A stretch of 50,552 nucleotides of DNA from a virus: the IMG/VR virus record IMGVR_UViG_3300042567_001324, positions 1 through 50,552 of that record, one strand, 5' to 3'. The notes beneath the pieces are model-generated. The model searched no databases. It was not told the DNA's origin and worked only from the letters and a program-made list of their open reading frames with translations. The translations under genes were made by a program, and so were the position numbers. Numbering within the stretch: position 1 is the stretch's first letter; each line of letters begins with the position of its first letter. Below are positions 10,512 through 50,552 of this stretch, one piece after another.

Positions 10512-10547
10512 CCACTTGTTTTATATTCTAACATAAAAAATTTTAAA

Positions 10548-17751: not shown

Positions 17752-18320
17752 TATTAGTAAACGGGTGTAGCTTCACCAGCGGCGAAGAAAGCTCCATCGC
17801 CTGGCCAAGCTTGGTACATGATTCTGTTAACATTGCAGTCGCAGGAGCCAGTAACGATTATATTGTACGTAGCACAGTTAACTACATCAACACCACCGAA
17901 GAATATCCTGTCAAGGTTATTATTGCGTGGACATCACCGGACAGAATAGAAATATCTAACAATCATTTAACTGCTAACAGCATTAAGAAATACGGGCAAG
18001 TGATAAATGAAGTATTTAGAGGATGGGATCAGGACTGGGCCAGAGATAAGTTTTTAACTCAAGTTGAGTTACTACATGCTTTTTTATCCTATAAATTGAT
18101 TCCGCACTTTTTTGTTAGTGCGTTTGATATACAAACGTGGGCCAGTGGCGCAAAGACTTATCCGTGGTTGGGATGGCCTGATCAGGGCCTAGTTGAATGG
18201 ATGAGCGATTGTCCTAAAGGACCAGAAGGCCATCCATTGGAACTTGGACATCAACGAATAGCAGATAAAATAAATGAACATATTGGGAATCTCGGCTGGT
18301 TTTCACGACGCAGCGACTAG
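17748..18320 (+). CDS. SGNH/GDSL-like hydrolase, copy 2
   Basis: A 190-residue protein. NGCSFTSGEE replaces the usual GDS with G-C-S; AGASNDYIVRSTVNYI holds the G-x-S-N segment and IIAWTSPDRIE a further strand. GHPLELGHQRIADKI is the C-terminal His block, again without the canonical Asp three residues before the His. It is shorter than copy 1 but shares both ends. It overlaps the carbamoyltransferase gene by 47 bases. Confidence 0.6.
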   Translation: MILVNGCSFTSGEESSIAWPSLVHDSVNIAVAGASNDYIVRSTVNYINTTEEYPVKVIIAWTSPDRIEISNNHLTANSIKKYGQVINEVFRGWDQDWARDKFLTQVELLHAFLSYKLIPHFFVSAFDIQTWASGAKTYPWLGWPDQGLVEWMSDCPKGPEGHPLELGHQRIADKINEHIGNLGWFSRRSD

Positions 18321-19755
18321 TGTAATTGACCATCACGGCAATATACTGTTTGCTGCTCATAGTGAACGCTACAGCAAAATAAAGAACGATCCAAATCTCT
18401 GTTACGAATTGTTACGTGATGTGATGTCTCATGGCCCAGTCAATCATGTGGCCTACTACGAACAACCATTGCAAAAGCAATTGCGTAGGTTGCGCAGTGG
18501 CGAGGGTATAGAGTGGAACAGATTATCTACCAAGAAAATCCTCACTGAGCAATTTGGCGGATATGCACATATTCCAAGTTACAGCAGTCACAGCCATCAT
18601 CTCAGTCATGCTGCAGCAGGATTCCAAACCAGTCCATTTGATCGTGCCACTGTGGTAGTAATAGATGCCATTGGAGAATCAGATACCATCAGCATTTACG
18701 GTGCAGAGTACGACAGCCATGGACAGGCACACTATAAACGACTATGGGGACAACGTTACCCACACAGTATAGGATTGTTCTACAGTGCAATGACGCAACG
18801 TGTGGGACTTAAACCCAATGAAGAAGAATATATCATGATGGGCATGAGTGCATACGGTGATCCTGGTCATGCTGATACAATAAGCACACAATATGTTGCA
18901 GATGAGTATCGTGCCACATTTAAAGAAAACTTACACATAGGCATTGATCAAACAGCATTGGCTGATTTGAGCAACACTGATATTGCAGCATCAGCACAAG
19001 CATTGACAGAACGAATGATTTATAATGTGATGTGCAATGCTAGAGATTTTAGATGGAGCCATAATCTTGTATACATGGGCGGAGTTGCACTCAACTGTCT
19101 AGCCAATAGAAACCTAGGAGAATACTTTGAAAATATATGGATTATGCCTAATCCTGGCGATGCTGGTAGCAGCCTTGGTGCTGCCGCACTTCAATATGGG
19201 CGTCGCCTTAATTGGGTCAATGCTTATCTTGGTCACAATATTCCGGGAGCATATCCGGTTAGACCCGTACTTGATAGTTTATTGGTTGACGGTATTGTTG
19301 GTGTTGCATCTGGTCGTGCTGAGTTTGGTCCACGTGCTTTAGGTAATAGAAGTTTGTTGGCGGATCCTAGAGGTCCAGATATCAAGGATAGAGTAAATGA
19401 AATTAAACGCAGACAAAAATTCAGACCCTTCGCCCCTGTTGTATTGGCTGAGATGGCTGACCAGTACTTTGATCTCAGCCCTGGCTGGCTTGACAGCAAT
19501 TATATGCAGTCAGTCGCTCGTTGCAGGTTTCCTGACCGTTTTCCTGCTATCTGCCATCATGATGGGACCAGTCGAGTACAAACGGTATCGTCGGATGGTT
19601 CAGGAATCCGAGCATTGTTAGAGGCCTGGTATGAACGAACTGGCTGCCCTATGCTGCTTAATACCAGCTTGAATATAAGAGGAGAGCCCATGGTCAATGA
19701 TAGAGCTGATGCAGATAGATTTGAACAACAATACGGAGTCAAGGTTTATTCATGA
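18274..19755 (+). CDS. Carbamoyltransferase, NodU/CmcH type
   Basis: A 493-residue protein. The N-terminal ASKHA-like domain starts NILGISAGFHDAATSVI and contains the His-rich HSHHLSHAAAGF block followed by FDRATVVVIDAIGESD and MGGVALNCLANRNL. The C-terminal part has EFGPRALGNRSLLADP and FRPFAPVVL, the YrdC-like domain that makes carbamoyl-AMP from carbamoyl phosphate. The family O-carbamoylates sugars and antibiotics. It is somewhat shorter than NodU-type enzymes, which are usually near 570 residues, with the end clipped after NTSLNIRGEPMV. The neighbouring sugar-type genes fit carbamoylation of a glycan hydroxyl. Confidence 0.85.
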   Translation: MNILGISAGFHDAATSVIDHHGNILFAAHSERYSKIKNDPNLCYELLRDVMSHGPVNHVAYYEQPLQKQLRRLRSGEGIEWNRLSTKKILTEQFGGYAHIPSYSSHSHHLSHAAAGFQTSPFDRATVVVIDAIGESDTISIYGAEYDSHGQAHYKRLWGQRYPHSIGLFYSAMTQRVGLKPNEEEYIMMGMSAYGDPGHADTISTQYVADEYRATFKENLHIGIDQTALADLSNTDIAASAQALTERMIYNVMCNARDFRWSHNLVYMGGVALNCLANRNLGEYFENIWIMPNPGDAGSSLGAAALQYGRRLNWVNAYLGHNIPGAYPVRPVLDSLLVDGIVGVASGRAEFGPRALGNRSLLADPRGPDIKDRVNEIKRRQKFRPFAPVVLAEMADQYFDLSPGWLDSNYMQSVARCRFPDRFPAICHHDGTSRVQTVSSDGSGIRALLEAWYERTGCPMLLNTSLNIRGEPMVNDRADADRFEQQYGVKVYS

Positions 19756-21906: not shown

Positions 21907-24900
21907 GTTTGATGTTTTTTATTTTGGGCCTAAGCCTGGTAGATTTGCGCACGAACAACCTGCTACAAGTTTAGAGGATGCTGCTGACAAGAGCCGCACT
22001 GGACTCTACTGGTATATTTATGGAGGCAACGATTACTCAAATTTTGATTTTAATTTTGTGCCAGCGCCCTGGGAAGCAAACCAAACACATGTATGGGCCA
22101 ATCAATGGCAACCCAATGGCGAAGTGTATTTGGCCAATAAACACAATACACAATTGGTTTACAATTACAGAACAGAATACCCAGTACATCGACTGCCAAT
22201 AATAGACTGTTATTCTATCCCTGAACATGTTGATAGAAACAGTATTGACTGGCGCTGGTGCCCAGATCCAGCATCGCCCCCATACATTTATGTATTTGGT
22301 AATCAATGGAATTTAGCGGTGCGTGAGCCAACTGTAACATACACAGTGCCTGGCGCTACACAATATAAATTTGTAGAAGATAGGCCTGTACAAGTGTTGC
22401 CAGTAATGGATCAGTGGAACATATTAGATGATATAGAATATTTTGATTTTTCCTGGCGTCCCAATCCTACAGATCCTCCTTATCGCTATGTGTTTGGCAA
22501 TCAATGGTTGGCACCAGAATTGAGACCTGCACTGGAGTACGTGGTTGGTAACGCCACAGAAACAAAGTACATGGACTACCCCAAGGCTACTAGAATCAGT
22601 CAGCCTAACAAGTTTACAATTGTGCATGCAGCCAGCTTTGACTTTAGCTGGGAACCAGATCCTGGTGATCCACCTTACGTCTATGTGTTTGGTAATCAGT
22701 GGTATCCTGCAGAGGTTATGCCTACAGTAGAATATGCAGTTGCAGGCGCAACTGAACGCAAGTTCCTGGATTATCCCAGAGCACAATTGCCAGAACGACA
22801 TAATAACCATTGGCACACATTGATAGACTGTGAATGGGATTACAGTTGGGTTCCAGATCCTGGTGATCCACCTTACATCTATGTGTTTGGTAATCAGTGG
22901 CACGCTGCAGAAATCATGCCCACAGTAGAATACCATGTGCTGGGTGCAGTTGAACGCAAGTACCTGGAATATCCCAAGGCTGCATTGTTGTCAATGCCGG
23001 AACGGTGGTGTGTGCCTGAAGAAATTAATGTAGACAACATTGACTTTACCTGGCATCCGCATCCAGCTGATTGTTTTGTACATCACTTTGGCAGTCAATA
23101 TCAAAAGAGCACTGGACTAACATATACCACTCCTGGTGCAACAGAAATTAAACTGGAATACGAATTACCAATCAAGCAGAAAGGCCAAAGTACAATTGTC
23201 GTGCTAGATATCTTTTTTGTTGATAAGGGTAACTCATTATCTGCAGTACGGTTTGAACAACTACAACAACGTTTTCCTGCTGCACAAAAGATCAGATACG
23301 CCAACAGCATGTTAGAAACTGTGCGTCGTTGTGTTACTAGAACCAGCACAAACAAATTCTGGGTTATTAGCAGCGAAAATGTTTACAGTGAGTTTGATTT
23401 TGCATGGCATGCCGAGCCGTGGCAAAGCTACATGACGCACATATTTGGCAGCCAATGGCAAAAATGGTCTGACACATATCTTGTCAACAAATGGGAGTTT
23501 GAAAGACATGCTAAATGGGCTACGTCTCTAGAACAGTTTCCTAGTTTGAACTTTGTTAACAATCAAACTGTACACAGACCCGATGATCTACATGACATCT
23601 ACTATGTTGATCATAACAATGCCAACCATCAATTGGCCTGGATGCAGCAACGGCATCCTGATATTAAAGTTACTCGCTTTGTTGATAATTATTTAGACAC
23701 GTTCAAACGTGTAATGACGACGGCTACAACTGAATACGTTTGGATTACCAGCAGCATTTGCAATTACACCAAATTTGATTTTTCCTGGCAACCCGAACCG
23801 TGGCAAAAGGAAATGATTCACGTGTTTGGCAGCAGCAGCCAACGTCGCGGAGATACTTTTTATATACATGTGGAATCGTTTAAGACACAGATGTATGAAT
23901 TAGAAATGCTGGATTGGTTTAATGTGATCAACTATTGCCAAGAACAATTGGTAGATCGACTGCCTGCTCCTGTGGTACAATTTGCCCAAGACAGCATTGT
24001 GCCTGCAGTACAAGCATATCAGTTTGATTTTCCATACGCAGTGTTTACCAATCAAAGCACAGCACCGTCAAACGCCCAGGATCTTTGTTTGTGGCATGCA
24101 AAAGACCGTGTAGCTGAGGCAATTACACGCAACGGGGCTACTACGATAGTGCCTAGAGAAATCAAGGCACATTTGCGTACACAATTATATGATTACCCTT
24201 ATGTAAACCGCAAAAATCCTCATTATGTGACTGAAAATCCCCTGGATACTATCTTCATTAGTAATGGTGAGCCCAATGAAGAACTAATGTTCCATCACAC
24301 CAAATACATGGCCAATAGTAATGTAAAATGGATACGTGGAGTCAATGGTCGTACGGCAGCGTATCAAGCGGCAGCTCGTGCAAGTACCACGCCCTGGTTT
24401 TTTGCTGTATTTGCCAAACTAGAAGTAATGGGAGGAAGTTTCCCTTGGTATACATGGCAACCAGATTATTGGCAAGAGCCCAAACATTATATCTTTAATG
24501 CACAGAATCCTGTTAACGGATTAGAGTACGGACACCAAGGCATGATTGCGTATAACAAGAATCTAGTATTAGCAAATAACAATCCTGGTATTGATTTTAC
24601 TCTAAGTCAGCCACACGAAAGTGTGCCTGTACTAAGTGGTATAGCACGATTCAATCAAGACCCTTGGATGACCTGGCGTACAGCATTCCGTGAAGTTGTT
24701 AAACTAAAACACTTTATGGCCACGCAACCTACGTTAGAAACTGAACATAGATTAACCACTTGGTTAACTGTGGCACATGGTGATCATGCGGAATGGTGTT
24801 TGCGTGGTGCAGCTGACGCTGTTGCTTACTATGAGGAGGTGGGTGGTGATTACAATCTGCTGATGCTGAGTTTTGATTGGGCTTGGTTACAAATCAAATT

Positions 24901-24922
24901 TATTCAGTATAGTAATTCTTGA
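21905..24922 (+). CDS. Large modular glycosyltransferase-related protein with tandem FGNQW repeats
   Basis: A 1005-residue protein with three zones. Residues ~1-420 hold repeats of about 66 residues with the core F-D-F-S-W-x-P-D-P-x-D-P-P-Y-x-Y-V-F-G-N-Q-W. Residues ~420-690 hold two longer modules, each with a D-(I/V)-x-(Y/F)-V-D start, P-x-x-K-x-x-R, a WV-SS segment and FDFSWxPEPWQ-HxFGS. Residues ~770-1005 resemble the GT-A-like protein at 5541 (GEPNEELMF, GVNGRTAAYQAAARAS, NPVNGLEYGHQG). No clear DxD motif is seen in the repeats, so most modules may be binding or scaffold units. The start has no ribosome binding site. Confidence 0.6.
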   Translation: MFDVFYFGPKPGRFAHEQPATSLEDAADKSRTGLYWYIYGGNDYSNFDFNFVPAPWEANQTHVWANQWQPNGEVYLANKHNTQLVYNYRTEYPVHRLPIIDCYSIPEHVDRNSIDWRWCPDPASPPYIYVFGNQWNLAVREPTVTYTVPGATQYKFVEDRPVQVLPVMDQWNILDDIEYFDFSWRPNPTDPPYRYVFGNQWLAPELRPALEYVVGNATETKYMDYPKATRISQPNKFTIVHAASFDFSWEPDPGDPPYVYVFGNQWYPAEVMPTVEYAVAGATERKFLDYPRAQLPERHNNHWHTLIDCEWDYSWVPDPGDPPYIYVFGNQWHAAEIMPTVEYHVLGAVERKYLEYPKAALLSMPERWCVPEEINVDNIDFTWHPHPADCFVHHFGSQYQKSTGLTYTTPGATEIKLEYELPIKQKGQSTIVVLDIFFVDKGNSLSAVRFEQLQQRFPAAQKIRYANSMLETVRRCVTRTSTNKFWVISSENVYSEFDFAWHAEPWQSYMTHIFGSQWQKWSDTYLVNKWEFERHAKWATSLEQFPSLNFVNNQTVHRPDDLHDIYYVDHNNANHQLAWMQQRHPDIKVTRFVDNYLDTFKRVMTTATTEYVWITSSICNYTKFDFSWQPEPWQKEMIHVFGSSSQRRGDTFYIHVESFKTQMYELEMLDWFNVINYCQEQLVDRLPAPVVQFAQDSIVPAVQAYQFDFPYAVFTNQSTAPSNAQDLCLWHAKDRVAEAITRNGATTIVPREIKAHLRTQLYDYPYVNRKNPHYVTENPLDTIFISNGEPNEELMFHHTKYMANSNVKWIRGVNGRTAAYQAAARASTTPWFFAVFAKLEVMGGSFPWYTWQPDYWQEPKHYIFNAQNPVNGLEYGHQGMIAYNKNLVLANNNPGIDFTLSQPHESVPVLSGIARFNQDPWMTWRTAFREVVKLKHFMATQPTLETEHRLTTWLTVAHGDHAEWCLRGAADAVAYYEEVGGDYNLLMLSFDWAWLQIKFIQYSNS
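22247..22905 (+). repeat. Four tandem ~198-bp coding repeats
   Basis: Units begin near 22247, 22444, 22640 and 22837, each coding for D-x-x-W-x-P-(D/N)-P...Y-V-F-G-N-Q-W and spaced 195-198 bases. The third and fourth units share long near-identical DNA stretches, including GTGTTTGGTAATCAGTGG, suggesting recent duplication or gene conversion. The first two units differ more at the DNA level while keeping the protein motif. Confidence 0.8.
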
Positions 24923-26018
24923 TGACTGCAACTACAGTTTCTACTTCAGCATCAGACAGTTCAGGATAGATAGGCAAACTCAGGCACTCTTTGGTAAACG
25001 AGTTGGTTTCTGTGTACACATCCTTGGTGTAGTCAATATAACTGGCTCCAACTCCTAGATCGTACAACGCATAATCATAGTGTATTTTACTTTCAATGCC
25101 ATGCCAACTTAATTTTGCTTGTAAGGCTGTTCGATCATGTGTGCGAATTACAAATTTATGCCAGGCATGAACCACATCCTTGTTTGGGGTTAATGTATCC
25201 ACGTACTGATACAACTCTTGCATGTAGTATTCGGCGATCTTGGTTCTGCGCCGCTGCCACGAATCAAAGTGATTGAGTTTGACCAACATCTGAGCTGAAT
25301 CAGACTCACTCATTTTGCTGTTGGTTCCTGGGGTGTCGTTGTGATAAAGATAGGTTACAGGTCTACCGTTGTCGCGCAGACCTTTTACTGTGTTGACAAT
25401 GTGCAGATCATCTGTCAAAATCATTCCTCCTGACCCATAGTTGCCCAAGTTCTTGGTTGGATCAAAACTCAACACGCTGATGTCACCCATCTTGCCACTG
25501 GGTATGCCTCGGTAACTGGCACCAAAACTTTGTGCTGCGTCTTCGATGATCACAAGATCATCATTAAAGAATCTAGTTTGTATTTGGAACCGATCCCAAT
25601 CTACACAGTTTCCAAACAAGTTCACGTACATAACAGCACCAACAGTGCGATCAAGCTTGTGTTGGCATGAATCTAAATCCATCAGACCATTGTGATCTAC
25701 GTCACAGAACACAGGAGTAAATTTGTTCATGAGTACACTGTTGATAGTGGCTACAAAACTCACTGTGGGTATTAGTACAGAATATGGAGGTCTGGCCAGA
25801 CTGGCCAATTGTGCAAAGATTAATGCTTGGGTACCCGAGTTGACTGCAACAGCAAAAGCTCTATTACATCTGGCAGCAATTGCCTGTTCAAAATGTTTGG
25901 TATACTCTCCATCTAGTACTCGACCTGTGCTGTACACTCGATCTGACGCATCAAGTATTTCGTCTCTTAGGTTTGCATATTGCCGGTCAAGTCCAAAAAA
26001 AGAGATTACAGAGTTCAT
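24900..26018 (-). CDS. DegT/DnrJ/EryC1/StrS-family aminotransferase
   Basis: A 372-residue PLP enzyme that transfers an amino group to a keto-sugar nucleotide. Motifs include SGTQALIFAQLA, PTVSFVATIN, EDAAQSFGASY and SFDPTKNLGNYGSGGMI, where the Lys binds PLP. The ATG at 26018 gives a usual start (SVISFFGLDRQYANL) two bases after the upstream stop and is preferred over 26051. It lies beside an NAD-dependent epimerase (26682-27650), a pairing typical of 4-amino-sugar synthesis. The 3' end overlaps the convergent gene by 23 bases. Confidence 0.85.
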   Translation of the reverse strand: MNSVISFFGLDRQYANLRDEILDASDRVYSTGRVLDGEYTKHFEQAIAARCNRAFAVAVNSGTQALIFAQLASLARPPYSVLIPTVSFVATINSVLMNKFTPVFCDVDHNGLMDLDSCQHKLDRTVGAVMYVNLFGNCVDWDRFQIQTRFFNDDLVIIEDAAQSFGASYRGIPSGKMGDISVLSFDPTKNLGNYGSGGMILTDDLHIVNTVKGLRDNGRPVTYLYHNDTPGTNSKMSESDSAQMLVKLNHFDSWQRRRTKIAEYYMQELYQYVDTLTPNKDVVHAWHKFVIRTHDRTALQAKLSWHGIESKIHYDYALYDLGVGASYIDYTKDVYTETNSFTKECLSLPIYPELSDAEVETVVAVIKNYYTE

Positions 26019-26019
26019 T

Positions 26020-26682
26020 TTATTCAATTTCGTTCTTGGCAGATGACTCACTCCAATAATTCTGATACTGTATAAATTTATCAGGTTGGCTACTATTTAA
26101 ATAGTCATCAAGAGAAAAACTTCTCTTCCAATTAAATAATCTATTCCTATATTCAAAATCTACTAATTTAGAAAGTTTTAATAAATCCGTCTCGCTTGTC
26201 CATAACTTTTGCGATATAATATTATCATTAATTAGGAATAGGAATTCTTGGTCAATTGGTATGTTATGTATCCTTAGATAAAATTCCTCAATAAATTTAA
26301 GATCCGACAATAAAGAGAAATCTATGCAATAATTGTAGCTAGTAGTGTCTATTTCTGCAGATTGGTCAGACATGATAAAATTTTTTATAAACAAAAAGAA
26401 CTGATCTAAAAAAGAAGTTTCTAAGACTATAGTATTTTTTAAATAATGATTATATGCAATTTGCATTATATTATTAATATTATAATTACAATTAATTCTA
26501 ATTCGTATATAATTACTGTAATTGTTGTTAATTACAGATTGATCATTGATATGGTGTATTTTAACATAATTTGGAGGATTAAGTGCTCCAAATTCTCTTG
26601 GTCGCCAATTATCTTTTAATACCGAAGACAAAAAATCGCCGCGAGCACCTGGTGCAAAATGTATTAGAAGCTTAACATCCAT
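26020..26682 (-). CDS. P-loop-like/sulfotransferase-like protein, copy 2
   Basis: A 220-residue, strongly AT-rich gene rich in Asn and Ile codons. The N-terminal loop HFAPGARGDFLSSVL matches the CAGTGGLFLTSV loop of the product at 9855-10511, and both are followed by a short His-containing segment (KIHHIND; NAHYGP). No Walker A lysine is present. Translation is coupled to the epimerase gene (TAATG junction). Function unknown; a transferase using a nucleotide donor is possible. Confidence 0.4.
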   Translation of the reverse strand: MDVKLLIHFAPGARGDFLSSVLKDNWRPREFGALNPPNYVKIHHINDQSVINNNYSNYIRIRINCNYNINNIMQIAYNHYLKNTIVLETSFLDQFFLFIKNFIMSDQSAEIDTTSYNYCIDFSLLSDLKFIEEFYLRIHNIPIDQEFLFLINDNIISQKLWTSETDLLKLSKLVDFEYRNRLFNWKRSFSLDDYLNSSQPDKFIQYQNYWSESSAKNEIE

Positions 26683-27650
26683 TATAATTTATTTTGCCAA
26701 TAAGACGATGATTTAAACCATTCGTAATAACGCCGAAAGCCTTCCTCAACATCAACTGTAGGAGCATAACCGAAGTCTTCTACAGCACTAGAAATATTTA
26801 ATCGACCACGTTTGGGAAATGCAAGGTCTCTATCCTGCACTTCAATACTGCCTCGACCGGCAATCTTGATAGCAAGTTCAGCAGCATCTTTTAATGTATA
26901 TTGTTGTTTGGCACTGCGTGTGATGTTGTAGATTTTATTATTTGCTTTTTTACTCAAGGTAGCTTGAGCGATTCCCATTGCAGCATCTTCTACATAAGTG
27001 AAGTCTAGTACTTCACTGGCACCTTTAACTCTGAGTGTTTCTCCACGCATGGCACCAAGCATGAACTTGCTTACCACACGATCCTCAACGTCGTATTCAC
27101 CATACACAGCACTGGGACGAATAATTATATATTCGAATCCATGTTGCCGAGCATAATCTTCCACCAGCTTCTCGCCCATGTATTTCATTATGCCGTACTG
27201 TCCAACTGGATTACATACAGCATCTTCGGTTACGTCAGAATCAAAGTTGCCGTACACCATGCTGCTGCTGATATACACAAACTTTTTTACTTTGTGTATT
27301 ACCGCTGCTTCGAGCAAGTTGATCAGACCAGTTACCATGGTCTGACTGGCAGTAACAGGGTCCTGTTGCACAACCTTTTGTCTCGGAAAACTGGCAAGAT
27401 GCACAATGGTTTTAATATTGAAAGTACCAACGAAAGAATTAATTTGTTGGGTGTTTCGGATATCAGTCACATGTGGAATAATATTCATACGCTTGCTGCG
27501 CTCATTGAACAAATATTCTTGTTCGGCTTGCGGTACAAACCCGTAATTGGTTCTACTGTCAATACCAAAGCATTCATGACCTGCTTGTTCAAGAAAACGG
27601 ACAACATTGTGCCCAATAAAACCAGCAGCCCCGGTTACAAGTATTTTCAT
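26682..27650 (-). CDS. NAD-dependent epimerase/dehydratase (extended SDR)
   Basis: A 322-residue nucleotide-sugar enzyme. GAAGFIGHN near the start is the GxxGxxG dinucleotide-binding motif. YGIMK supplies the catalytic Tyr and Lys (YxxxK) after the ISSSMVYG segment. RPSAVYGEYDVEDRV and VLDFTYVEDAAMGI are typical of UDP-sugar epimerases. It is the first gene of a coupled set with the P-loop-like protein and the DegT aminotransferase. The exact sugar cannot be deduced. Confidence 0.85.
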   Translation of the reverse strand: MKILVTGAAGFIGHNVVRFLEQAGHECFGIDSRTNYGFVPQAEQEYLFNERSKRMNIIPHVTDIRNTQQINSFVGTFNIKTIVHLASFPRQKVVQQDPVTASQTMVTGLINLLEAAVIHKVKKFVYISSSMVYGNFDSDVTEDAVCNPVGQYGIMKYMGEKLVEDYARQHGFEYIIIRPSAVYGEYDVEDRVVSKFMLGAMRGETLRVKGASEVLDFTYVEDAAMGIAQATLSKKANNKIYNITRSAKQQYTLKDAAELAIKIAGRGSIEVQDRDLAFPKRGRLNISSAVEDFGYAPTVDVEEGFRRYYEWFKSSSYWQNKL

Positions 27651-42069: not shown

Positions 42070-42273
42070 TTATTCTTTGCCCCATTTGATCTTGAGCCAA
42101 ATTCGTTCGTGTATGTAATAGTCTACGCTTAACAACAGATGTAACACCGTGGCAAATCCTGCTGCAGATCCGAAGTCTCCAGTGAACAGGTATGTCCAGA
42201 AGATAGTAAACAGCCAGGCAGTTAGCCTGTAAGTAAGCATTCGTACTACGGTTCTTTTTCGTGTTTCTGTCAT
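42070..42273 (-). CDS. DUF2061-type membrane protein
   Basis: A 67-residue protein with two hydrophobic segments ([14 protein letters not shown] and [14 protein letters not shown]). [19 protein letters not shown] and the end [14 protein letters not shown] match the DUF2061 pattern (R-x-x-x-K/R at the start, Y-x-x-H-E-R-x-W at the end). The ATG at 42273 overlaps the queE stop (TAATG). The role of the family is unknown. Confidence 0.75.
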
Positions 42274-43124
42274 TAGGTCCCCCATTCATTTTTAAATAGT
42301 GGTACTTGCAATCTATCACTATATCTTAGGCCATGTTGCATGGCCAATTCTGCCACTCTGCGATTGTTTAGACTGTACACACTCTCAACACCACCAACAG
42401 GCATTAGATACACAGGACCTGTGAATCCCGCTTGTCTATAGGCCTGCACAGTCCATACAGCTTCTTCAACATCGGCCTCTGTGGCTACTACCAATTTGAG
42501 ATAGGTATGTCCGTATTTTTCATAATTGCACACAATATCAGGCCGAATAGCTTCGTCTCTACTTTCTCCCGAGCAACTTAGCTTGGTACTGACACTAAAA
42601 GTCACTTCACGTTTGACGCCACTGGCAAATTCCCACTTGGTCAAATACTGTGCAAACTCAGTTGACAGTTCTTGAGTACCATTTGTTTCAAATGTAATCT
42701 CTTTGAGCGTGGCCATTTCTGGTTGTTCTAGCAAGTCGGGATATGCACGTTGCCACCCCAGCAGCGGTTCACCACCTGTGATCACAAGATGTTCGTCTCT
42801 CCACTCTTTGAATGGCAAGGTCTCTACAATAGACTTGGCAATCACATCAGTATCGTATGTGGCGGAAAGATCTTTGAATCTTGGATCCCAAGACGCATAA
42901 CTGTCACATCCTGTACTCACTAACGGTAGTTCGTGATAGAATTTAAAGTCTGCAACACGATCAGCAATGGCCTCTACTTCAGTGCTGGCCTGACCAGCAG
43001 GCATACCAAAGCCGGCGCATTTGAAGTTGCATCCAAATGTTCTCAAGAACACACTAGGCACACCCATATAACGGCCTTCACCTTGGATACTGTAAAACAA
43101 TTCTGCTATCTTGAGTTTACTCAT
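42273..43124 (-). CDS. queE: 7-carboxy-7-deazaguanine synthase-like radical SAM enzyme
   Basis: A 283-residue protein from the ATG at 43124 (ATGA with queD). SIQGEGRYMGVPSVFLRTFG is the family start. The cluster cysteines are C32 and C36 (CNFKC), but a Phe stands where the third is normally found. A third Cys, C73, occurs in GCDSYASWDP, which resembles the C-D-T-x-Y of classic QueE, so an insertion of ~34 residues seems to split the motif. LVITGGEPLLGW and TFETNGTQ follow. It converts 6-carboxytetrahydropterin to the 7-deazaguanine precursor. Confidence 0.85.
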   Translation of the reverse strand: MSKLKIAELFYSIQGEGRYMGVPSVFLRTFGCNFKCAGFGMPAGQASTEVEAIADRVADFKFYHELPLVSTGCDSYASWDPRFKDLSATYDTDVIAKSIVETLPFKEWRDEHLVITGGEPLLGWQRAYPDLLEQPEMATLKEITFETNGTQELSTEFAQYLTKWEFASGVKREVTFSVSTKLSCSGESRDEAIRPDIVCNYEKYGHTYLKLVVATEADVEEAVWTVQAYRQAGFTGPVYLMPVGGVESVYSLNNRRVAELAMQHGLRYSDRLQVPLFKNEWGT

Positions 43125-43624
43125 ACAAACAAGTCCTCGTTCCATTCACGATGGCCTTCTCTAAAAGCCATGTTGCTTTGTGTTTCGCGCACTTCTACTC
43201 GGTAGCACCACAATCGTTCTGCTTCTGATTGCCCCCACATGTCAGGGATGTACACTCCATTAACATATTTGTAAAGTTGGTCAGCCAGGCCTTCGCAACC
43301 TAATCTAGGTAGTATGGTCAGCTTGGCTAGCTTGCGCCGTTCCATTTCTTTGTAGAACTCCAGCTCAGGATCATCCTCAGCTACCAGCAGGGTATGATCA
43401 AACTGGCTTTCGAGTACGCTTTTGAGTTCTTTAAGCCCACCATAATCAGCAGCCCAGTTGCGGGCATCAAGATTATTAGTACCAAAATAAAACTTCATGC
43501 TAAAACTATAACCGTGAATCAGGTTGCAATGGCTATCGGCTCGCCATTGACGGTATGCTACCGGAAAGGCATTGTGATACTCTTTGGTACTGGTAAATTT
43601 GTATTGTACTGGTTGTAGTGTCAT
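43121..43624 (-). CDS. queD: 6-carboxytetrahydropterin synthase-like protein
   Basis: A 167-residue member of the PTPS/QueD family. DSHCNLIHGYSFSMKFYFG aligns with the C-x-x-L-H-G-H motif of classic QueD, giving the catalytic Cys and one His but Tyr for the second. The upstream zinc His of A-A-H-R-L appears as VAYRQW. FDHTLLV supplies the D-H pair and GCEGLADQLYKYV the Glu block. Two zinc ligands therefore appear changed. It makes the QueE substrate from dihydroneopterin triphosphate. Translation is coupled to queE. Confidence 0.8.
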   Translation of the reverse strand: MTLQPVQYKFTSTKEYHNAFPVAYRQWRADSHCNLIHGYSFSMKFYFGTNNLDARNWAADYGGLKELKSVLESQFDHTLLVAEDDPELEFYKEMERRKLAKLTILPRLGCEGLADQLYKYVNGVYIPDMWGQSEAERLWCYRVEVRETQSNMAFREGHREWNEDLFV

Positions 43625-43633
43625 TGTATTGCT

Positions 43634-43672
43634 CCTATGTGTAATAATAACATAGGCTGTAGAATTTGTAAA
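43634..43672 (-). promoter_or_regulatory. queD promoter nested in a hairpin that overlaps the ribosome binding site
   Basis: On the minus strand: TTTACA (5/6, plus 43667-43672), a 17-base spacer, then TATTAT (5/6, plus 43644-43649). A 7-bp inverted repeat, CCTATGT and ACATAGG (plus 43634-43640 and 43650-43656), encloses the -10 box. The downstream arm continues into AGGAG, the queD ribosome binding site. Confidence 0.55.
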
Positions 43673-43711
43673 GCGGGATAAAGCCAGAAAGGCCGCTGTG
43701 TAGAATTATAT

Positions 43712-45199
43712 TTATGTTTGTTTTAGTAACATATATCTATTTTGTGGATTTTTAAAACTTACAAAACTCTGTTCAATTGAGGACAGTGAAAAACCAGCAT
43801 TCCATAATGGCCAGCTGTATTTAATACCTTCTTCCATAATTCTCAGATGGCGGCGGACTCGTTCTTTAAAGTCAAACTCTGGTCTTGCAGGATCTAACCA
43901 AAATTTTGTATTCATATGCCCGGTAGCTGCGTCTTGTTGAAAAACAAAATTTTTATTAATTGCAATTGACTCTAAATGTGTATCGGGCAACACACTTAAT
44001 AGATTTAAAGTTTCGACCCCAATAATAGTACCACTTGCAACATATTTTTGCCATCTAGAAAACATTTGTAATGTCTCATTATAATCTTCAATGGTTTCAG
44101 ATATGTATCCTGTAAAGAATAAAAAAAGAATCTCGATGCCATGTTTTTGAAAATTTTCTAAATAAAATTCAATGTCATCATTGGTAAATTTTTTACCAAT
44201 TTCAAATCTAATCCGATCACACCCAGATTCAATACCAGCATATAATCGTTTTCCTCCTCCTTCTTTGATCAAATCAAAATGATCTTTTGGAGTAGTTTCC
44301 TTGGATCGTATTATATATTGTCCGGACCACGATATTGGTGTGTGAAATCTATAATTAGCTAAAGTATTGCACATGTCGTTAAATGCCTTAAAACTGCCGT
44401 TTATTAGACTGTCTGCAAAGTAAAAATCAGTAACTCCGTATGTTTCGTAATGTTGTATAATTTCGCTAGCAATGTTCTGACCTGATCTAAATTGATATTT
44501 GGGAGTTGTTACTCTAACGTCACAGAACGTACAATCTCTAACACATCCTCTGCTGCCAATAATATTAAATTCTAATTTGTTTTCATCGTTACGATACGCT
44601 GTTAAGTCATAGTATGAATAATCCGGAAACGGATACTGATCCAAATTAGTTATCTGTACAAAGTCCAAATTTCCTATACCTGGACCTGAGCTATGCTTGA
44701 AATATTGTATTAGCGATTCTTCGGCCTCGCCTACAATATACTCATCAATTAGATTATTGTCTTTAAGAATAGTACCATAAGTTTTACTATTTCCAATTAC
44801 TCTTTTAATTCCTGCACCACCAATTATAATTTTAGCCTTGGATTTTTTCCTAATGCTTGGTAATAGAATATTAGTAAATGATTGTGCCAGATATGAAAAT
44901 AAACTAACTATAATGTAATCAAAACTACTAACTTGAATCTGATCTAGATAATTTAGTAACCATTGATTAATTATTTCTTTTTGGTCTGCGGAATAATCAG
45001 ACACCATCTCGTAAAAAACATCGTCAAAAAAAGAATCAGGTTTATTGATATTTCTTAAATATTCACGTAAGTGTATATTCATATCTTTGGCCGAGACATC
45101 GTGCCCAATACTAGCACAGAGACTCGCTAATATTGCGCCACTTAACGGAGGCCGTAGATGATCAAGAGGCGGCACATGTAATATTAACGTCTTAATCAT
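43712..45199 (-). CDS. B12-binding-type radical SAM protein
   Basis: A 495-residue protein. The N-terminal ~180 residues resemble a cobalamin-binding Rossmann domain (GAILASLCASIGHDVSAKDM; FDYIIVSLFSYLAQS; KIIIGGAGIK; VGEAEESL), but the D-x-H-x-x-G cobalt-ligand motif is not seen. GSRGCVRDCTFCDVR holds the CX3CX2C radical SAM motif, followed by FYFADSLINGS and GIESGCDRIRFEIGK. The family performs methylation or ring chemistry on lipids, sugars and tetrapyrroles. The gene is AT-rich. Confidence 0.8.
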   Translation of the reverse strand: MIKTLILHVPPLDHLRPPLSGAILASLCASIGHDVSAKDMNIHLREYLRNINKPDSFFDDVFYEMVSDYSADQKEIINQWLLNYLDQIQVSSFDYIIVSLFSYLAQSFTNILLPSIRKKSKAKIIIGGAGIKRVIGNSKTYGTILKDNNLIDEYIVGEAEESLIQYFKHSSGPGIGNLDFVQITNLDQYPFPDYSYYDLTAYRNDENKLEFNIIGSRGCVRDCTFCDVRVTTPKYQFRSGQNIASEIIQHYETYGVTDFYFADSLINGSFKAFNDMCNTLANYRFHTPISWSGQYIIRSKETTPKDHFDLIKEGGGKRLYAGIESGCDRIRFEIGKKFTNDDIEFYLENFQKHGIEILFLFFTGYISETIEDYNETLQMFSRWQKYVASGTIIGVETLNLLSVLPDTHLESIAINKNFVFQQDAATGHMNTKFWLDPARPEFDFKERVRRHLRIMEEGIKYSWPLWNAGFSLSSIEQSFVSFKNPQNRYMLLKQT

Positions 45200-45728
45200 C
45201 TAATGTTTTTTTTATTTGGGCAATCTTATTTGATATTGTTTGGTGATCAAATTTATCACGACCGCTATATGTCTGAGATGTCAACACATGATTTTTTATA
45301 AACTTCTCCTGTATGATCCAATTTAAAACTGGGTTAGTAACAGCAATTTTGATGGTACCATTTGTATAAAATCCCTTGGTGTTAAAAAGACCAACCTTGT
45401 GGTCAATCATAATTGGAAGATTTCTAATCCAGACTTCCTCCATTGATATGTCGTTTATTTTAAAATTGTTAAACACAACGGATTTATCAGCAAGAATGTT
45501 TCTATCCAAATCTAGCACAGTGTCCCAAACACCATCCTGACCAAATTTTTTGCCTATGCCAGAAATTTCAATTAAGTAGCTGTTTGATTCTGGTGCAACA
45601 ACGCTTAAAATTTGATTACCTTGAATTTCTCCGTTAAAATGTAGCATATTGTTTATTTTTATATTTAACGTAGGCCAAGATGCTCCCTGATTGCCGGTAA
45701 CATCAAGCAGTAGGGTTAATGCCACCAT
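45192..45728 (-). CDS. Protein of unknown function, possibly a beta-sandwich carbohydrate-binding module
   Basis: A 178-residue protein. LTLLLDVTGNQGASWPTLNI and SYLIEISGIGKKFGQDGVWD suggest alternating beta strands with exposed acidic loops, like small carbohydrate-binding modules; this is inference from pattern alone. FNNFKINDISMEEVWI adds another strand pair. It overlaps the phosphoribosyltransferase gene before it and the B12-type radical SAM gene after it. Confidence 0.4.
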   Translation of the reverse strand: MVALTLLLDVTGNQGASWPTLNIKINNMLHFNGEIQGNQILSVVAPESNSYLIEISGIGKKFGQDGVWDTVLDLDRNILADKSVVFNNFKINDISMEEVWIRNLPIMIDHKVGLFNTKGFYTNGTIKIAVTNPVLNWIIQEKFIKNHVLTSQTYSGRDKFDHQTISNKIAQIKKTLDD

Positions 45729-46267
45729 GACTCGTACGGGAACTCAATCCATACGTCCTGTTCGGATTTGTTGATCTCTTCGCCAACATAGCTGGTACTG
45801 ATGTTGGATTCGCTAGCAAGATTATCATACAGCACAGCAAATCGCACATTGTTGCCCCAAACATGTTCCCAGTCTGGATCAGCTGGCAAACAACTGCCTT
45901 GCCAATCTTGCATGATCCAGTTGATAGTAGCGCCGCTGTCATTGATATCATCAACAATTAATATTTTTTTAGCAAATGTAGGGTCGCTACGCTTGCTAAT
46001 ACCTTCACGGAACGGACCTTCGGGTATGTATCCAAATGCATCCTCGGCCATCCAGCAGTTGCTTTCGCACTGCCCGCCATCACGTAAACTGACCTTGAGC
46101 ATTTCGCAAGGGACGTCAAAGTAATGACTAATCATCACAGCAGGAACAGCGCCGCCACGAGTGATGCCCACAACATAATCGGGGCGCCAATCATCAACAG
46201 CAATGTCTCTACAAATTTTACCCACAAGCCCAGTTAACGCTTTATTAGTGACAATTAATTTATTCAT
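45716..46267 (-). CDS. Phosphoribosyltransferase
   Basis: A 183-residue type I phosphoribosyltransferase. ILIVDDINDSGATIN is the PRPP-binding motif; YVVGITRGGAVPAVMIS is the Arg/Gly loop of the xanthine-guanine group. EMLKVSLRD and the Trp/Glu-rich end complete the fold. It may salvage a purine or a modified base. It lies between FolE and QueD/QueE, so a link to 7-deazaguanine handling is possible but not shown. TAATG couples it to the upstream gene. Confidence 0.8.
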   Translation of the reverse strand: MNKLIVTNKALTGLVGKICRDIAVDDWRPDYVVGITRGGAVPAVMISHYFDVPCEMLKVSLRDGGQCESNCWMAEDAFGYIPEGPFREGISKRSDPTFAKKILIVDDINDSGATINWIMQDWQGSCLPADPDWEHVWGNNVRFAVLYDNLASESNISTSYVGEEINKSEQDVWIEFPYESWWH

Positions 46268-46455
46268 TAGTCACGTTCCATTTCAGCTGCTTCCTTGATG
46301 AGGGCTGTCAGTTCCGCAAAGTCCTTGCAAAGAACTTTGGCAGTAACCCATTCTTCGTTGCTGTTGCGTCCACCAACTTCAACCATGTAGCCATTGTCAT
46401 ACATGTAGACAGTGAAGTGGTCGTTACATTTTGTTAGTTTATTGTTGAGTTTCAT
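46267..46455 (-). CDS. Small protein of unknown function
   Basis: A 62-residue protein with a short beta-rich core (HFTVYMYDNGYMVEVGGRNS) and a helical end (FAELTALIKEAAEMERD). A small phage-type protein with no known function. Its stop overlaps the ATG of the phosphoribosyltransferase. Confidence 0.5.
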   Translation of the reverse strand: MKLNNKLTKCNDHFTVYMYDNGYMVEVGGRNSNEEWVTAKVLCKDFAELTALIKEAAEMERD

Positions 46456-46473
46456 TGCATCTCCGTGATTGAT

Positions 46474-46776
46474 TTATTTCTTCCAAAATTTGGCCTTGTC
46501 TAAAGCGGTTTTCTTTGGTTCTGATTTTTGCGGTGGCTCGGGTTCAGGTGGTGTTGTTCGAACAGGCAAATCTGATTTAAGCATGTTTTTGATCAACAGC
46601 ACTGTTCTTTCTAATTCCTTGTCGGCTATTACTTTGATAGCCAATAATTTACTATCGTAATTGTTTGCACCATCAAGCAAGCCGGCTGGTACTTTCATTG
46701 TTTTTTTTGGTTTAAGTGAGTCTAGTTGTTTCTTTAATGCTGCTGCGTCATTGTTATTATTATTTTCGTCGGACAC
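46474..46776 (-). CDS. Small charged protein of unknown function, GTG start
   Basis: A 100-residue protein. Start is GTG at 46776 with AGGA at a 7-base spacing. The Asn-rich N-terminus, the helix NYDSKLLAIKVIADKELERT and the Pro/Glu/Lys-rich tail suggest a flexible adaptor protein. Its ribosome binding site can pair with part of the hairpin at the end of folE. Confidence 0.5.
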   Translation of the reverse strand: MSDENNNNNDAAALKKQLDSLKPKKTMKVPAGLLDGANNYDSKLLAIKVIADKELERTVLLIKNMLKSDLPVRTTPPEPEPPQKSEPKKTALDKAKFWKK

Positions 46777-46783
46777 TTTATTT

Positions 46784-46819
46784 TCCTATCAAACTAGATA
46801 GGACAAATATCCTATCTAG
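46784..46819 (-). promoter_or_regulatory. Two alternative RNA hairpins between folE and the next gene
   Basis: In the minus-strand RNA, arm 1 (CUAGAUAGGA, plus 46810-46819) pairs with arm 2 (UCCUAUCUAG, plus 46794-46803). Arm 2 also pairs with arm 3 (GAUAGGA, plus 46784-46790), which contains the AGGA ribosome binding site of the GTG-started gene. The two hairpins exclude each other. The folE stop codon lies in arm 1. Confidence 0.5.
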
Positions 46820-47621
46820 GTGCAAACTCCTGTTGCAATTTAATGTTGTCGAAGAATTCCTTCTTAACACTGGAGTCGGTTTTAAACGCACCCTGAAGAA
46901 CTGTAGTTTGTGTCAAACTACTATGTGCCATAATGCCACGGTTTTCACAACACCCGTGCGTTGCTTGAATATAAACTGCAACATTCTCACTGCCTGTTGC
47001 TGACATAATTTCTCGAGCAATATCATTACATAGCTCTTCTTGCAACGTACCTCGCCTAGCACACCATTGTGCTATACGTGTATATTTACTCAAGCCAATT
47101 AATTTTTGGGCTGCAATGATACCAATATAGGCAACTCCAGCCACTGGCTGGTGATGGTGGCTGCACATGCTGCGTAACTCACTGCGTACAACCAGCATAC
47201 CGTCGTAACGATCTGCACTATCATTGGGAAAAGCCGTTGCTTCGGGTGCAGTTTCGTACCTGCCTGCCATTATTTCGTTAAAATACATCTTGGCAAGTCT
47301 ACGTGCGGTGCCTTGGCTGTTGGGATCTGTTTCGCGATCAATTAGTAATGCATCTAATACCCCCTCAAATGCTTCTGTGGCTTCATTGATCAAATGTTCG
47401 CGATCTGAATTGGCCACATAGTCGCTGATGTTGTCGCCTGCCCAGAAGCGTTTGTTGTCAGCTCGCATTCGTTCACGTAGGGCAGCACTCAGCAGTTTTT
47501 CTTTTTTAACACCAGGTTGGTCTACTGCACGAACGTACAATGGTGATGGTACTACTAAAGGTACAAACTCTGTTGGTGGTGGTTGATTTAATACTGGATC
47601 TGGGGTAAATTCTGTTGTCAA
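46812..47621 (-). CDS. folE: GTP cyclohydrolase I
   Basis: A 269-residue protein from TTG at 47621, where CGGAG lies at a 7-base spacing; an upstream TTG at 47654 would add 11 residues. MCSHHHQPVAGVAYIG and HGCCENRGIMAHSS give the zinc Cys/His and active-site blocks. SKYTRIAQWCARRGTLQEEL is typical. The N-terminus is ~60 residues longer than in bacterial FolE. It makes dihydroneopterin triphosphate, the start of both folate and 7-deazaguanine synthesis, so it feeds queD/queE nearby. Confidence 0.9.
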   Translation of the reverse strand: MTTEFTPDPVLNQPPPTEFVPLVVPSPLYVRAVDQPGVKKEKLLSAALRERMRADNKRFWAGDNISDYVANSDREHLINEATEAFEGVLDALLIDRETDPNSQGTARRLAKMYFNEIMAGRYETAPEATAFPNDSADRYDGMLVVRSELRSMCSHHHQPVAGVAYIGIIAAQKLIGLSKYTRIAQWCARRGTLQEELCNDIAREIMSATGSENVAVYIQATHGCCENRGIMAHSSLTQTTVLQGAFKTDSSVKKEFFDNIKLQQEFAPR

Positions 47622-47657
47622 TTGTGTTCTCCGAGTTAAGGACGTGGATGTCAAAGT

Positions 47658-47751: not shown

Positions 47752-48879
47752 TTATTCTTCCCAAACATATGGGCCAGATTTTTGTACAGCAAAAGTTAAA
47801 TACGATTCAATTTTTTCTAAATCTGCTGAAGTTTTTAAACTAGTAACTTCGTTAGCAAAGTGTAATTCAACTCCTAAGTCTAACGCCAAATTTAAAATTT
47901 CTTTGCGTCTTTCTGCATCGTCGGTTAACGAATATATACTACACATTACTATACCGTCTGGCTTTTGTTTGATGTAATGTTCTAGTGCTGGTTGCCAATC
48001 CATATGCTCGTTGTCTGTTAGATAATCATTATAACTAATTTTATTTTTTACACAATATTGTTCTATAATAGAACGTTGCATAGGTAATGTTTGCCATTTA
48101 CTAAAAGCACTACTCCATCCTGCATAAGTAACAAATTTTCTTCCGGTATTATCCGAAATCCTTGCACCTTCGTAGTCGCCTGGTAACCGCATAAATCCTC
48201 CTGGGTTTCTACGCAAATATTCTTCTCCTTCAACCAGGATACGCATATCCATACTGACTCTAGTATAATTTTCTTTATTGTCTACATTACCGTGCAAGTG
48301 TTCTTGTAAAAATAAGTGACTTTGGCCTGTATTCAAGGTTACTGGTTGTGCATAACGTAAACATTCTTTTTCAAATTTTTCTAAGCTCCATTTTTCACTT
48401 AACACTTGCTTAGTAAGTTGCCTACTAATAGCTAAATCTAATATCCACATAGTATTAGTTTTCTCTGCGCGAGTAAAAGGTGTCCAAATGGTTCTGCAAC
48501 CTCTACCATTGCCTACAAATATGCCCTGATGAAACCATAATCTGCGTCCTGCCTGTGCCTGATTAGGTATAACGACTCGTAGCGTACCTTGTCGTTGTAT
48601 TAAATACTTTTTATAATTAATTCGTTGTGGAATATATTCTTCTACAAATTTATCAAATTTCTCCATGAAATCTTTTCTGCTGCATGCATTTTGCACATGG
48701 GCCGCAACCTTGACTATTTCAGCAGGATTTAGAACTTCGTGTAAAGTTTCTAGTTCTTTTACGTGTGGCATTATTTCTTGTATAATAGACAATGCCCAAG
48801 CAGGCCAATTATACTTTCCTAAATTATAATTTAGAGTTTTGTTATTCCACTCTTTTTCGGTTATTTTTAGTTCTGTCAT
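47752..48879 (-). CDS. 2OG-Fe(II) oxygenase-like/LIC12192-like fusion of a sporadic carbohydrate cluster type
   Basis: A 375-residue protein. Residues ~105-235 hold RRLWFHQGIFVGNGRGCRTI, then EKTNTMWILD, FLQEHLHGNVDN and RVSMDMRI, an order consistent with a 2-oxoglutarate/Fe(II) oxygenase (His ligand, downstream His-Gly, Arg-x-Ser). Residues ~260-370 (KFVTYAGWSSAFSKWQTLPM; IEQYCVKNKISYNDYLTDNE; GIVMCSIYSL; ELHFANEVTSL) resemble the small LIC12192-type protein of sporadic carbohydrate clusters. I recall the two as separate genes; here they appear fused. It is coupled to the epimerase gene (ATGA). Confidence 0.55.
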   Translation of the reverse strand: MTELKITEKEWNNKTLNYNLGKYNWPAWALSIIQEIMPHVKELETLHEVLNPAEIVKVAAHVQNACSRKDFMEKFDKFVEEYIPQRINYKKYLIQRQGTLRVVIPNQAQAGRRLWFHQGIFVGNGRGCRTIWTPFTRAEKTNTMWILDLAISRQLTKQVLSEKWSLEKFEKECLRYAQPVTLNTGQSHLFLQEHLHGNVDNKENYTRVSMDMRILVEGEEYLRRNPGGFMRLPGDYEGARISDNTGRKFVTYAGWSSAFSKWQTLPMQRSIIEQYCVKNKISYNDYLTDNEHMDWQPALEHYIKQKPDGIVMCSIYSLTDDAERRKEILNLALDLGVELHFANEVTSLKTSADLEKIESYLTFAVQKSGPYVWEE

Positions 48880-49796
48880 TGATTTTTCCTTAAAAATTTT
48901 AATAAATCAATAGTGTCATTGATACCGTTACTAAGGCTAACTTTAGGTTTCCACCCTAAAGTTTGTGTGATTAAATTATGATCGCTGTTTAGGTAATAGA
49001 GTTCACCAGGCCTAATAGGTTTTGAATCCCAAATAATTTTTCCTTGCCAGTTCAATTTATTAGCAATTAATTGTGCATAATCCTTGATCTTAATAGGATT
49101 GTCTGGTCCTAATGTGAAAGTTTTGCCTTCGCACAAGGTAGGATTATTAATTACTTGCTCCCATGCGTCAACTAAATCATCAATGTAGATAAAGTTTCTA
49201 TAAGGTTCTGCGTATCCTAAAGAAATTTCGTTAGGATTACTTAACATTTGTGAAATAATTTGTTCAGTTACAAAAAAGTTATTATCTTTTCTGCCGTAGC
49301 TATTTGTTTGCCTAATTATTGTAAACGGTAAATTTAAACAACGTCTAGCATATTCTAAATATTTTTCAACGCCAAATTTAGCAATAGAATATGGAGCATT
49401 GGGACTGGGTATAGTGTGTTCGTTAAACGCTATAAATTTATCAGGAATCAAATTTAGTTTTACTTCGTCGCTAATTGGTTGCCACCCATATACCTCCATT
49501 GTGCTAGCAAAAACAAAGTTTTTTAAATTTTTAAGTTTACTAGCGGTTTCAATTAAGTTAACGCTACCTACATAATTAATTTGACTGAAAGTAATTTGTT
49601 CGTAAAAGCTTTGTTCAACTTCTGTTCTAGCAGCTAGATGAACTATTATTTCTGGATTGGACTCTATTACTTCTTTAGTTACTTCGGCAAAATTAAGTAA
49701 ATCATTTTTTAAAAAATGTAACTCATTATTATGCCCAAGTCTAGCAGATAGGTAGGATCCTATAAAACCGGAATGTCCGGTAATTAAAATTTTCAT
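48876..49796 (-). CDS. NAD-dependent epimerase/dehydratase (GDP-mannose dehydratase-like SDR)
   Basis: A 306-residue nucleotide-sugar enzyme. ITGHSGFIGSYL carries GxxGxxG. YSIAK in NAPYSIAKFGVEKYLE is the catalytic Tyr and Lys. RQTNSYGRKDNNFFVTEQII and YRNFIYIDDLVDAWEQVI are substrate-binding segments typical of NDP-sugar dehydratases. AT-rich. Part of a coupled three-gene set with its neighbours. Confidence 0.85.
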   Translation of the reverse strand: MKILITGHSGFIGSYLSARLGHNNELHFLKNDLLNFAEVTKEVIESNPEIIVHLAARTEVEQSFYEQITFSQINYVGSVNLIETASKLKNLKNFVFASTMEVYGWQPISDEVKLNLIPDKFIAFNEHTIPSPNAPYSIAKFGVEKYLEYARRCLNLPFTIIRQTNSYGRKDNNFFVTEQIISQMLSNPNEISLGYAEPYRNFIYIDDLVDAWEQVINNPTLCEGKTFTLGPDNPIKIKDYAQLIANKLNWQGKIIWDSKPIRPGELYYLNSDHNLITQTLGWKPKVSLSNGINDTIDLLKFLRKNQ

Positions 49797-50368
49797 ATAA
49801 TTGTAATTTGTCGCAAATCAGGATATTGATGATATTCAGGTAATTTGTTGATGGTAGTTAATTTTTCTAAACCAATTTTTGCGTCTTCGATAGTGGGTCT
49901 ATAGTGATACCCAATCTTGAACGTGCATTGTGATTCCCAAGGCGCAACAGATAATCTGCGTCCGTCGTATCGTTGTTCAATTATGGTACTGTATGCCTGT
50001 GCATCATCTAACAGTATAGCACCACCATGCCCTATATGTAAAGGTTTATTGTGCCCAAAACTCAGACACTGCATTTGTCCCGCACGATACATGTTTCTTT
50101 CCAATCTACGTGCGCTATCCCAGATGTTAGTGCCGTGAAACGGATATTCACCAACCCAGGTTTCTTCGGTGTACAAATATGCAATGCCCAACTTGTGCAT
50201 GGTCATTGGTATACTAAGATAGGTGAATGGAGTAAATGCTGTTTGAGTGACAGCATGGTATCGTAGACACATTTCAATCGCATGAGTACAACAGTCGGTC
50301 ATTATTGCATGCGGCGCCCCGGTATATTCAGCCAATGCCTGCTCAAATTTTAATATTTGATCAAACAT
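49793..50368 (-). CDS. Short DegT-like aminotransferase-related protein
   Basis: A 191-residue protein, about half the normal DegT length. DCCTHAIEMCLRYH matches the S-G-T-x-A-L cofactor block with Cys-Thr-His. YLSIPMTMHKLGI is the core of the large domain. SFGHNKPLHIGHGGAILL carries the Lys expected to bind PLP. QRYDGRR follows. The C-terminal small domain is missing or short. It may be a compact aminotransferase or a lone PLP domain that needs a partner. Coupled to the epimerase gene by ATGA. Confidence 0.6.
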   Translation of the reverse strand: MFDQILKFEQALAEYTGAPHAIMTDCCTHAIEMCLRYHAVTQTAFTPFTYLSIPMTMHKLGIAYLYTEETWVGEYPFHGTNIWDSARRLERNMYRAGQMQCLSFGHNKPLHIGHGGAILLDDAQAYSTIIEQRYDGRRLSVAPWESQCTFKIGYHYRPTIEDAKIGLEKLTTINKLPEYHQYPDLRQITII

Positions 50369-50552
50369 TTTTTATATTTTGAACAAGTTGTTGCATGTCG
50401 TTAGTATACCGTTTACCTAAATCAATGTTGTAAAACAATTCCATATTTTTTTTCCTCCTGTCATGTGTTTTGATAAAAATTTCATGTAGATTTTCTTTGA
50501 CTAAATTATCTAATATCTCATGAAGTTTAAACATTCTTTTAAATGGATCTGG
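50361..50552 (-). CDS. 3' end of a gene running beyond the window
   Basis: The last 63 codons of a minus-strand gene, open at the right edge of the window. The visible part is Lys/Asn/Asp-rich and helical (DPFKRMFKLHEILDNLVKEN; TNDMQQLVQNIKNV). It overlaps the next gene by 8 bases. AGGAGG followed by ATG occurs within it and would start a 27-codon frame, but the open frame continues upstream, so a partial gene is more likely. No function can be given. Confidence 0.5.
   Translation of the reverse strand, partial: PDPFKRMFKLHEILDNLVKENLHEIFIKTHDRRKKNMELFYNIDLGKRYTNDMQQLVQNIKNV

Follow-up and report, generated by a model that had tools for sequence, protein, structure and literature searches.

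Sugar genes at the right edge of the window

Three genes lie on the minus strand at positions 47752–50368 of the window, by which we mean the whole stretch of phage DNA analysed (positions 1–50,552 of IMG/VR record IMGVR_UViG_3300042567_001324). From upstream to downstream, they encode a compact DegT-like PLP aminotransferase of 191 aa (49793..50368), an extended SDR of 306 aa and of the nucleotide-sugar dehydratase/epimerase type (48876..49796), and a fused protein of 375 aa, which joins a PhyH-type Fe/2OG domain to a LIC12192 domain (47752..48879). Both junctions within the trio are 4-bp overlaps (ATGA), and the 191-aa gene overlaps by 8 bp with the next upstream gene, whose stop lies at 50361. 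An earlier note on this DNA had described the three genes as tightly coupled, which is borne out by the positions of the open reading frames, their common strand and the 4-bp overlaps. The upstream gene codes for a glycosyltransferase-like protein, whose C-terminus falls within the window (50361..50552, minus strand) and which is cut by the window edge. It is complete, with 345 aa, on contig L003 (3742–4776), which belongs to the same phage and extends to the right of the window. The 345-aa protein had no family match in profile scans, and it is termed glycosyltransferase-like solely from its likeness to neighbours in the window. It is joined on L003 by a GalE-type epimerase (278 bits against a curated cut-off of 262.3) and a 397-aa glycosyltransferase-like protein; the genome to the right of the window, where the earlier note had proposed to look for more members of the cluster, thus holds further sugar genes.

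The 306-aa protein, noted before as an SDR epimerase, is an extended SDR by its matches to PF01370 (121.5 bits; gathering score 20.9) and PF16363 (134.4 bits), and contains the NAD-binding motif GHSGFIG, the catalytic YxxxK as YSIAK, and STMEVYG. The models for 4,6-dehydratases and epimerases come closest to it, with all scores under the curated cut-offs. An SDR relative stands directly upstream of the fused gene in 53 of 120 close homologues.

The 191-aa protein matches the DegT family (PF01041) with 56.6 bits against a cut-off of 19.8, in a chain much shorter than the about 360–390 aa of full-length DegT proteins. Its family comprises 34 distinct viral sequences, every one of 189–204 aa, which retain the presumed PLP-binding lysine K108 (SFGHNKPLHIGHGG; 50045..50047, minus strand), invariant in the viral family (97% or more), and a D-x-A motif, and are without most of the normal C-terminal half. 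A truncated pseudogene was rejected in view of the constant short length across the family and the retention of the PLP lysine. The previous description as a half-length DegT-like protein was therefore right about the family and the short length, while "half" in the sense of a fragment does not hold for what is a conserved compact family. An isolate cyanophage, Synechococcus phage S-SCSM2R, carries a compact DegT that is 39% identical over the whole length (PQ898602.1, 231862–232443), so that this enzyme type could be tested in culture. A separate sugar locus at 24900–27650 of the window has its own SDR and a DegT aminotransferase of full length (383 aa); the same phage thus encodes DegT proteins of both the full-length and the compact kind.

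The fused protein in viruses and its split bacterial counterparts

The Fe/2OG-type domain of the 375-aa protein, a TIGR04324-like double-stranded beta-helix, covers residues 1–245 (48145..48879, minus strand), and the LIC12192-like domain (TIGR04323), with a resolvase-N-terminal-like fold, covers residues about 249–362 (47794..48135, minus strand). The whole protein matched TIGR04324 (2OG-Fe oxygenase) over residues 33–214 with E 1e-20 and 74.4 bits, half of the curated cut-off of 150 bits, and TIGR04323 (LIC12192) over residues 265–362 with E 1.8e-12 and 47.3 bits against a curated cut-off of 55 bits. With scores under both cut-offs, it is a divergent relative of the two families. The earlier note had named a fusion of a 2OG-Fe(II) oxygenase-like and a LIC12192-like part and had asked for a profile search of each half separately. 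When scanned alone against NCBIfam, residues 1–244 matched TIGR04324 solely (3.5e-21) and the C-terminal 119 aa matched TIGR04323 solely (4.1e-13, 49.4 bits); each half belongs with the family named, and neither falls in an unrelated one. Profile–profile comparison by hhalign gave 1.3e-16 for the viral family against bacterial TIGR04324 and 4.4e-15 against bacterial LIC12192, and one viral homologue (L223) reached 55.1 bits with TIGR04323. One distant viral member also matched PhyH itself in Pfam, at E 0.0012 and short of the gathering score. We know TIGR04324 and TIGR04323 solely as families and are aware of no substrate for either, and the literature searched yielded no paper on them.

The fold of the C-terminal domain raised the question of a serine recombinase. 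Searches of viral predicted structures (BFVD) returned serine recombinases among the matches, apparently from the C-terminal part, and the serine resolvase family PF00239 scored 15.3 bits with the domain (gathering score 23.3). Nevertheless, Pfam scans of the bacterial LIC12192 members gave no PF00239 match, the PDB profile search gave no support for this assignment, and the place of the presumed catalytic serine varies among S, N, A and T in the viral domains. The likeness in profile and fold is weak, and the LIC12192 domain was rejected as a serine recombinase.

The viral family comprises 187 proteins that cover the match, from roughly 150 IMG/VR contigs when duplicate contigs are allowed for. 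Almost all of them are 361–405 aa long with both domains present, and their identity to the window protein ranges from 35 to 100%. The first two IMG/VR scans confirmed 182 and 196 relatives and two further scans added more distant ones, and distant members still match both the TIGR04324 and TIGR04323 models. A 100% identical protein occurs on three further contigs. Chance or chimeric assembly is excluded as the source of the joined gene by its retention in about 150 contigs and by these three, and the fusion is a family rather than an accident. It was not found in isolate phages (tblastn, three queries) or in plasmids (tblastn, one query). A T4-type portal gene on two large contigs of the group (217 and 364 kb) indicates that at least part of the fusion-bearing phages are T4-like. 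The single match in a bacterial genome set (L083) turned out to be a contig of phage origin within a MAG of Pelagibacter and was set aside as evidence for a host copy. Two other genes recur next to the fusion: a B12-binding radical SAM protein in the distant fusion phages (595 aa; L203 4220–6004 and relatives) and an aspartyl/asparaginyl beta-hydroxylase (PF05118; L053 12800–13354 and relatives).

In bacteria, the same two families are encoded side by side. All 25 bacterial loci that exceed the TIGR04324 cut-off have a separate LIC12192 gene next, in the same order and at a distance of about 30 bases or less, so that the phage gene is best read as a fusion of such a bacterial-type pair. Besides the joining of two parts into one phage gene, a resemblance to the sporadic carbohydrate clusters of bacteria had been suggested before, and this also holds: beyond the invariant order of the pair, SDRs were present in 11/11 and DegT proteins in 4/11 of the wider bacterial clusters checked. 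By their sequences, the phage SDR and DegT are of the same classes as these cluster members and not their orthologues, with 20–30% identity to the cluster's own SDR and DegT. The TIGR04324 oxygenases share with the phage protein the spacing H..G..W.P, HGN..N and TR.S...R, whereas the phage protein has HxG instead of HxD and bears LIC12192, a separate gene in bacteria, as the C-terminal domain of one polypeptide. SAR11 genomes proper contain the split pair, and their oxygenase has HxD (HSD or HAD). TIGR04324 and TIGR04323 are otherwise known as a pair from their neighbouring genes; in the phages this pairing is fixed in a single gene, which gives direct evidence of their joint action. SAR11 genomes (L255, L256 and L257) show a LIC12192 fusion of another kind, in which the domain is joined to an apparent SAM-dependent methyltransferase in open frames of 356–394 aa.

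Active site of the fused protein: HxG in place of HxD/E

The main feature of the fused protein is that it lacks the acidic iron ligand, which the earlier reader did not notice. At the position of the HxD/E ligand pair, the window protein has H117-Q118-G119 (48523..48531, minus strand). In the alignment, position 119 is G in every viral row and D (28) or E (1) in the 29 non-viral rows, while both histidines and the 2-oxoglutarate arginine are common to all viral and non-viral rows. The distal histidine, H196 (48292..48294, minus strand), aligns to the histidine of bacterial HGN and is the predicted second iron ligand, and R207 (48259..48261, minus strand) aligns to the arginine of bacterial TRWS and presumably binds 2-oxoglutarate. 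H117, G119, H196 and R207 are each present in 187/187 viral sequences, the most distant of which are about 35% identical. Also invariant in the viral family are H-x-G-x3-G-N-G-x-G, W132, Q192, HG, TR, D211 and R213.

The bacterial motif H-A/S-D-x-W-x-G corresponds to viral F-H-Q-G-x-F/W-V-G-N-G, and profile–profile alignment places viral H-Q-G over bacterial H-A-D free of gaps. A weak profile match to PtlH (E 0.018) sets FHQDGFYIG against viral FHQ-GIFVG, by which the aspartate may count as deleted rather than replaced; under either alignment, the viral proteins have no carboxylate at the usual iron-ligand place. The viral HxG group forms one side of a branch with support 99/98 in the tree, where long outgroup branches leave the exact sister unsettled. 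The viral branch departs from the known families both in architecture, by the fusion, and in catalytic centre, by HxG.

It could be argued that the protein is still a normal oxygenase in which another residue has taken over as third ligand; the candidate to replace the aspartate is the virus-specific acid E193 (48301..48303, minus strand), three residues before H196. E193 is kept in 185/187 viral sequences, and bacterial TIGR04324 proteins mostly have T or N at this place. The other two viral sequences, however, have Q or D there, and a residue at i−3 from H196 in a strand usually faces away from the metal, so that we regard this alternative as very unlikely. D211 was also considered as a replacement ligand and was rejected, since an aspartate is also found there in many HxD relatives and in PtlH and is hence not specific.

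Loss of the standard iron ligand from every member might instead mean that the domain is catalytically dead and acts in sugar metabolism as a platform for binding or regulation. The resolvase-like LIC12192 half, which lacks conserved resolvase catalytic residues, would indicate that folds without catalytic function are tolerated in this protein. Active sites that have decayed usually drift, whereas both histidines, the 2-oxoglutarate arginine and many neighbouring residues are invariant here down to 35% identity. This strict conservation argues against a dead enzyme, which appears quite improbable.

A first structure model built from close homologues only was discarded (pLDDT 53.7), and an AlphaFold2 model built from 36 diverse viral sequences reached pLDDT 94.2 and pTM 0.90; as modelled, the fold is of the PhyH type. 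In Foldseek against the PDB, the best match was the CurA halogenase domain (3nnj, E 9.1e-9), with PtlH and SyrB2 also listed. VIA-align 2 placed PtlH (1-deoxypentalenic acid hydroxylase) first, with Z 14.4 and 208 residues superposed at rmsd 3.5, and further 2OG oxygenases, GriE among them, came next; no halogenase was among the 50 VIA-align matches listed, which excludes nothing. PtlH, the closest solved structure by VIA-align, retains the aspartate that the phage protein lacks.

Possible chemistry, substrate and neighbouring pathways

The best reading of these results is that the fused protein could be an active two-histidine Fe/2OG enzyme that tailors a phage-made sugar, plausibly by halogenation. 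A nucleotide-activated sugar would be the substrate of the SDR, which is of 4,6-dehydratase/epimerase type, and of the compact DegT aminotransferase, and the fused protein would functionalise a C–H bond of that sugar or of a derivative. Fe(II) would be bound by H117 and H196 only and 2-oxoglutarate through R207, and G119 would leave a coordination site open, at which a halide could bind and lead to Fe/2OG halogenation. The LIC12192 domain probably gives substrate binding or coupling, and the adjacent glycosyltransferases might attach the modified sugar to a phage or host glycan. We put this forward tentatively: it is possible rather than probable that the operon makes an unusual sugar and that the fused enzyme modifies it, and halogenation would then be the likeliest single chemistry.

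Mechanistically, Fe/2OG halogenases are marked by Gly or Ala in place of Asp or Glu, which leaves a site on the iron free to take up halide (PMC12346261). Halogenation is favoured here because HxG occurs with the two histidines and the 2-oxoglutarate arginine kept, and because the CurA halogenase domain came first in Foldseek. The Fe/2OG halogenases (CurA Hal domain, SyrB2, CytC3) resemble the phage protein in the HxG/A...H two-histidine centre without acidic ligand and, according to the phage model, in the double-stranded beta-helix of PhyH/halogenase type; they differ from it in having 12–16% identity and in that the phage gene lies in a sugar-cluster context.

HxG is, however, not proof of halogenation, since AspH (aspartate/asparagine beta-hydroxylase) is a hydroxylase with the same HXG...H iron centre and FIH keeps some activity with its Asp changed to Gly (PMC10947486). 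The phage protein might accordingly be an AspH-like two-histidine enzyme, in which H117 and H196 hold Fe(II), water fills the vacant site, and the sugar substrate is hydroxylated, desaturated or epimerised. The top VIA-align matches, PtlH and GriE, are hydroxylases, and the bacterial HxD homologues are presumably hydroxylases or oxidases. AspH itself hydroxylates protein domains and belongs to another branch (PF05118), whose profile gave no match to the 375-aa protein at E up to 1, and it was the CurA halogenase domain, not a hydroxylase, that headed the Foldseek matches. Taken together, we consider hydroxylation or its related outcomes somewhat unlikely, though they rank next after halogenation.

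The sugar link is contextual, because SDR and compact DegT genes do not always adjoin the fusion, especially in distant members. An active enzyme with a non-sugar substrate, such as a nucleotide, DNA base, lipid or peptide, and with sugar neighbours that are incidental, is thus a further reading, one about the substrate that partly coincides with the others. FolE and 7-deazaguanine-type genes adjoin the fusion in the window, FolE is a frequent neighbour in the homologues, the radical SAM and AspH-like genes mentioned above recur as well, and halogenases that act on nucleotides are known, for example AdaV (PMC11186838). Against this, the relatives in bacteria belong to sugar clusters and an SDR is the commonest neighbour of the fusion, and a non-sugar substrate seems to us unlikely.

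Returning to sugar halogenation, the most specific form of the proposal is that a widespread clade of uncultured aquatic phages possesses an Fe/2OG halogenase derived from the fused sugar-cluster pair of bacteria, in which Asp became Gly and which would halogenate a nucleotide sugar made by the phage's own SDR and compact aminotransferase. This is conceivable and somewhat doubtful; if true, a new class of viral enzyme would have been found, possibly with a halogenated phage sugar. We know of no earlier viral halogenase of Fe/2OG mechanism, and the phage enzyme would be the first. The viral halogenases known so far are of the flavin-dependent kind, from cyanophages (PMC10452541), with unrelated chemistry and fold. 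Irrespective of the outcome, the natural HxD and HxG groups within one family offer a test of shifts between Fe/2OG hydroxylation and halogenation.

Further genes were noted elsewhere in the window. Beside the trio, positions 42273–47654 encode FolE, QueD-like, QueE-like and phosphoribosyltransferase-like proteins and a B12-type radical SAM protein, which likely constitute a set for 7-deazaguanine nucleotide modification. A NodU-type carbamoyltransferase-like protein is found at 18274–19755, with E 1e-38 and well under the equivalog cut-off. Furthermore, a run of radical SAM-like proteins extends over 7438–15735, in a density unusual for a phage, and includes a twitch-domain radical SAM protein at 11882–13240 (NF033640, 393 bits).
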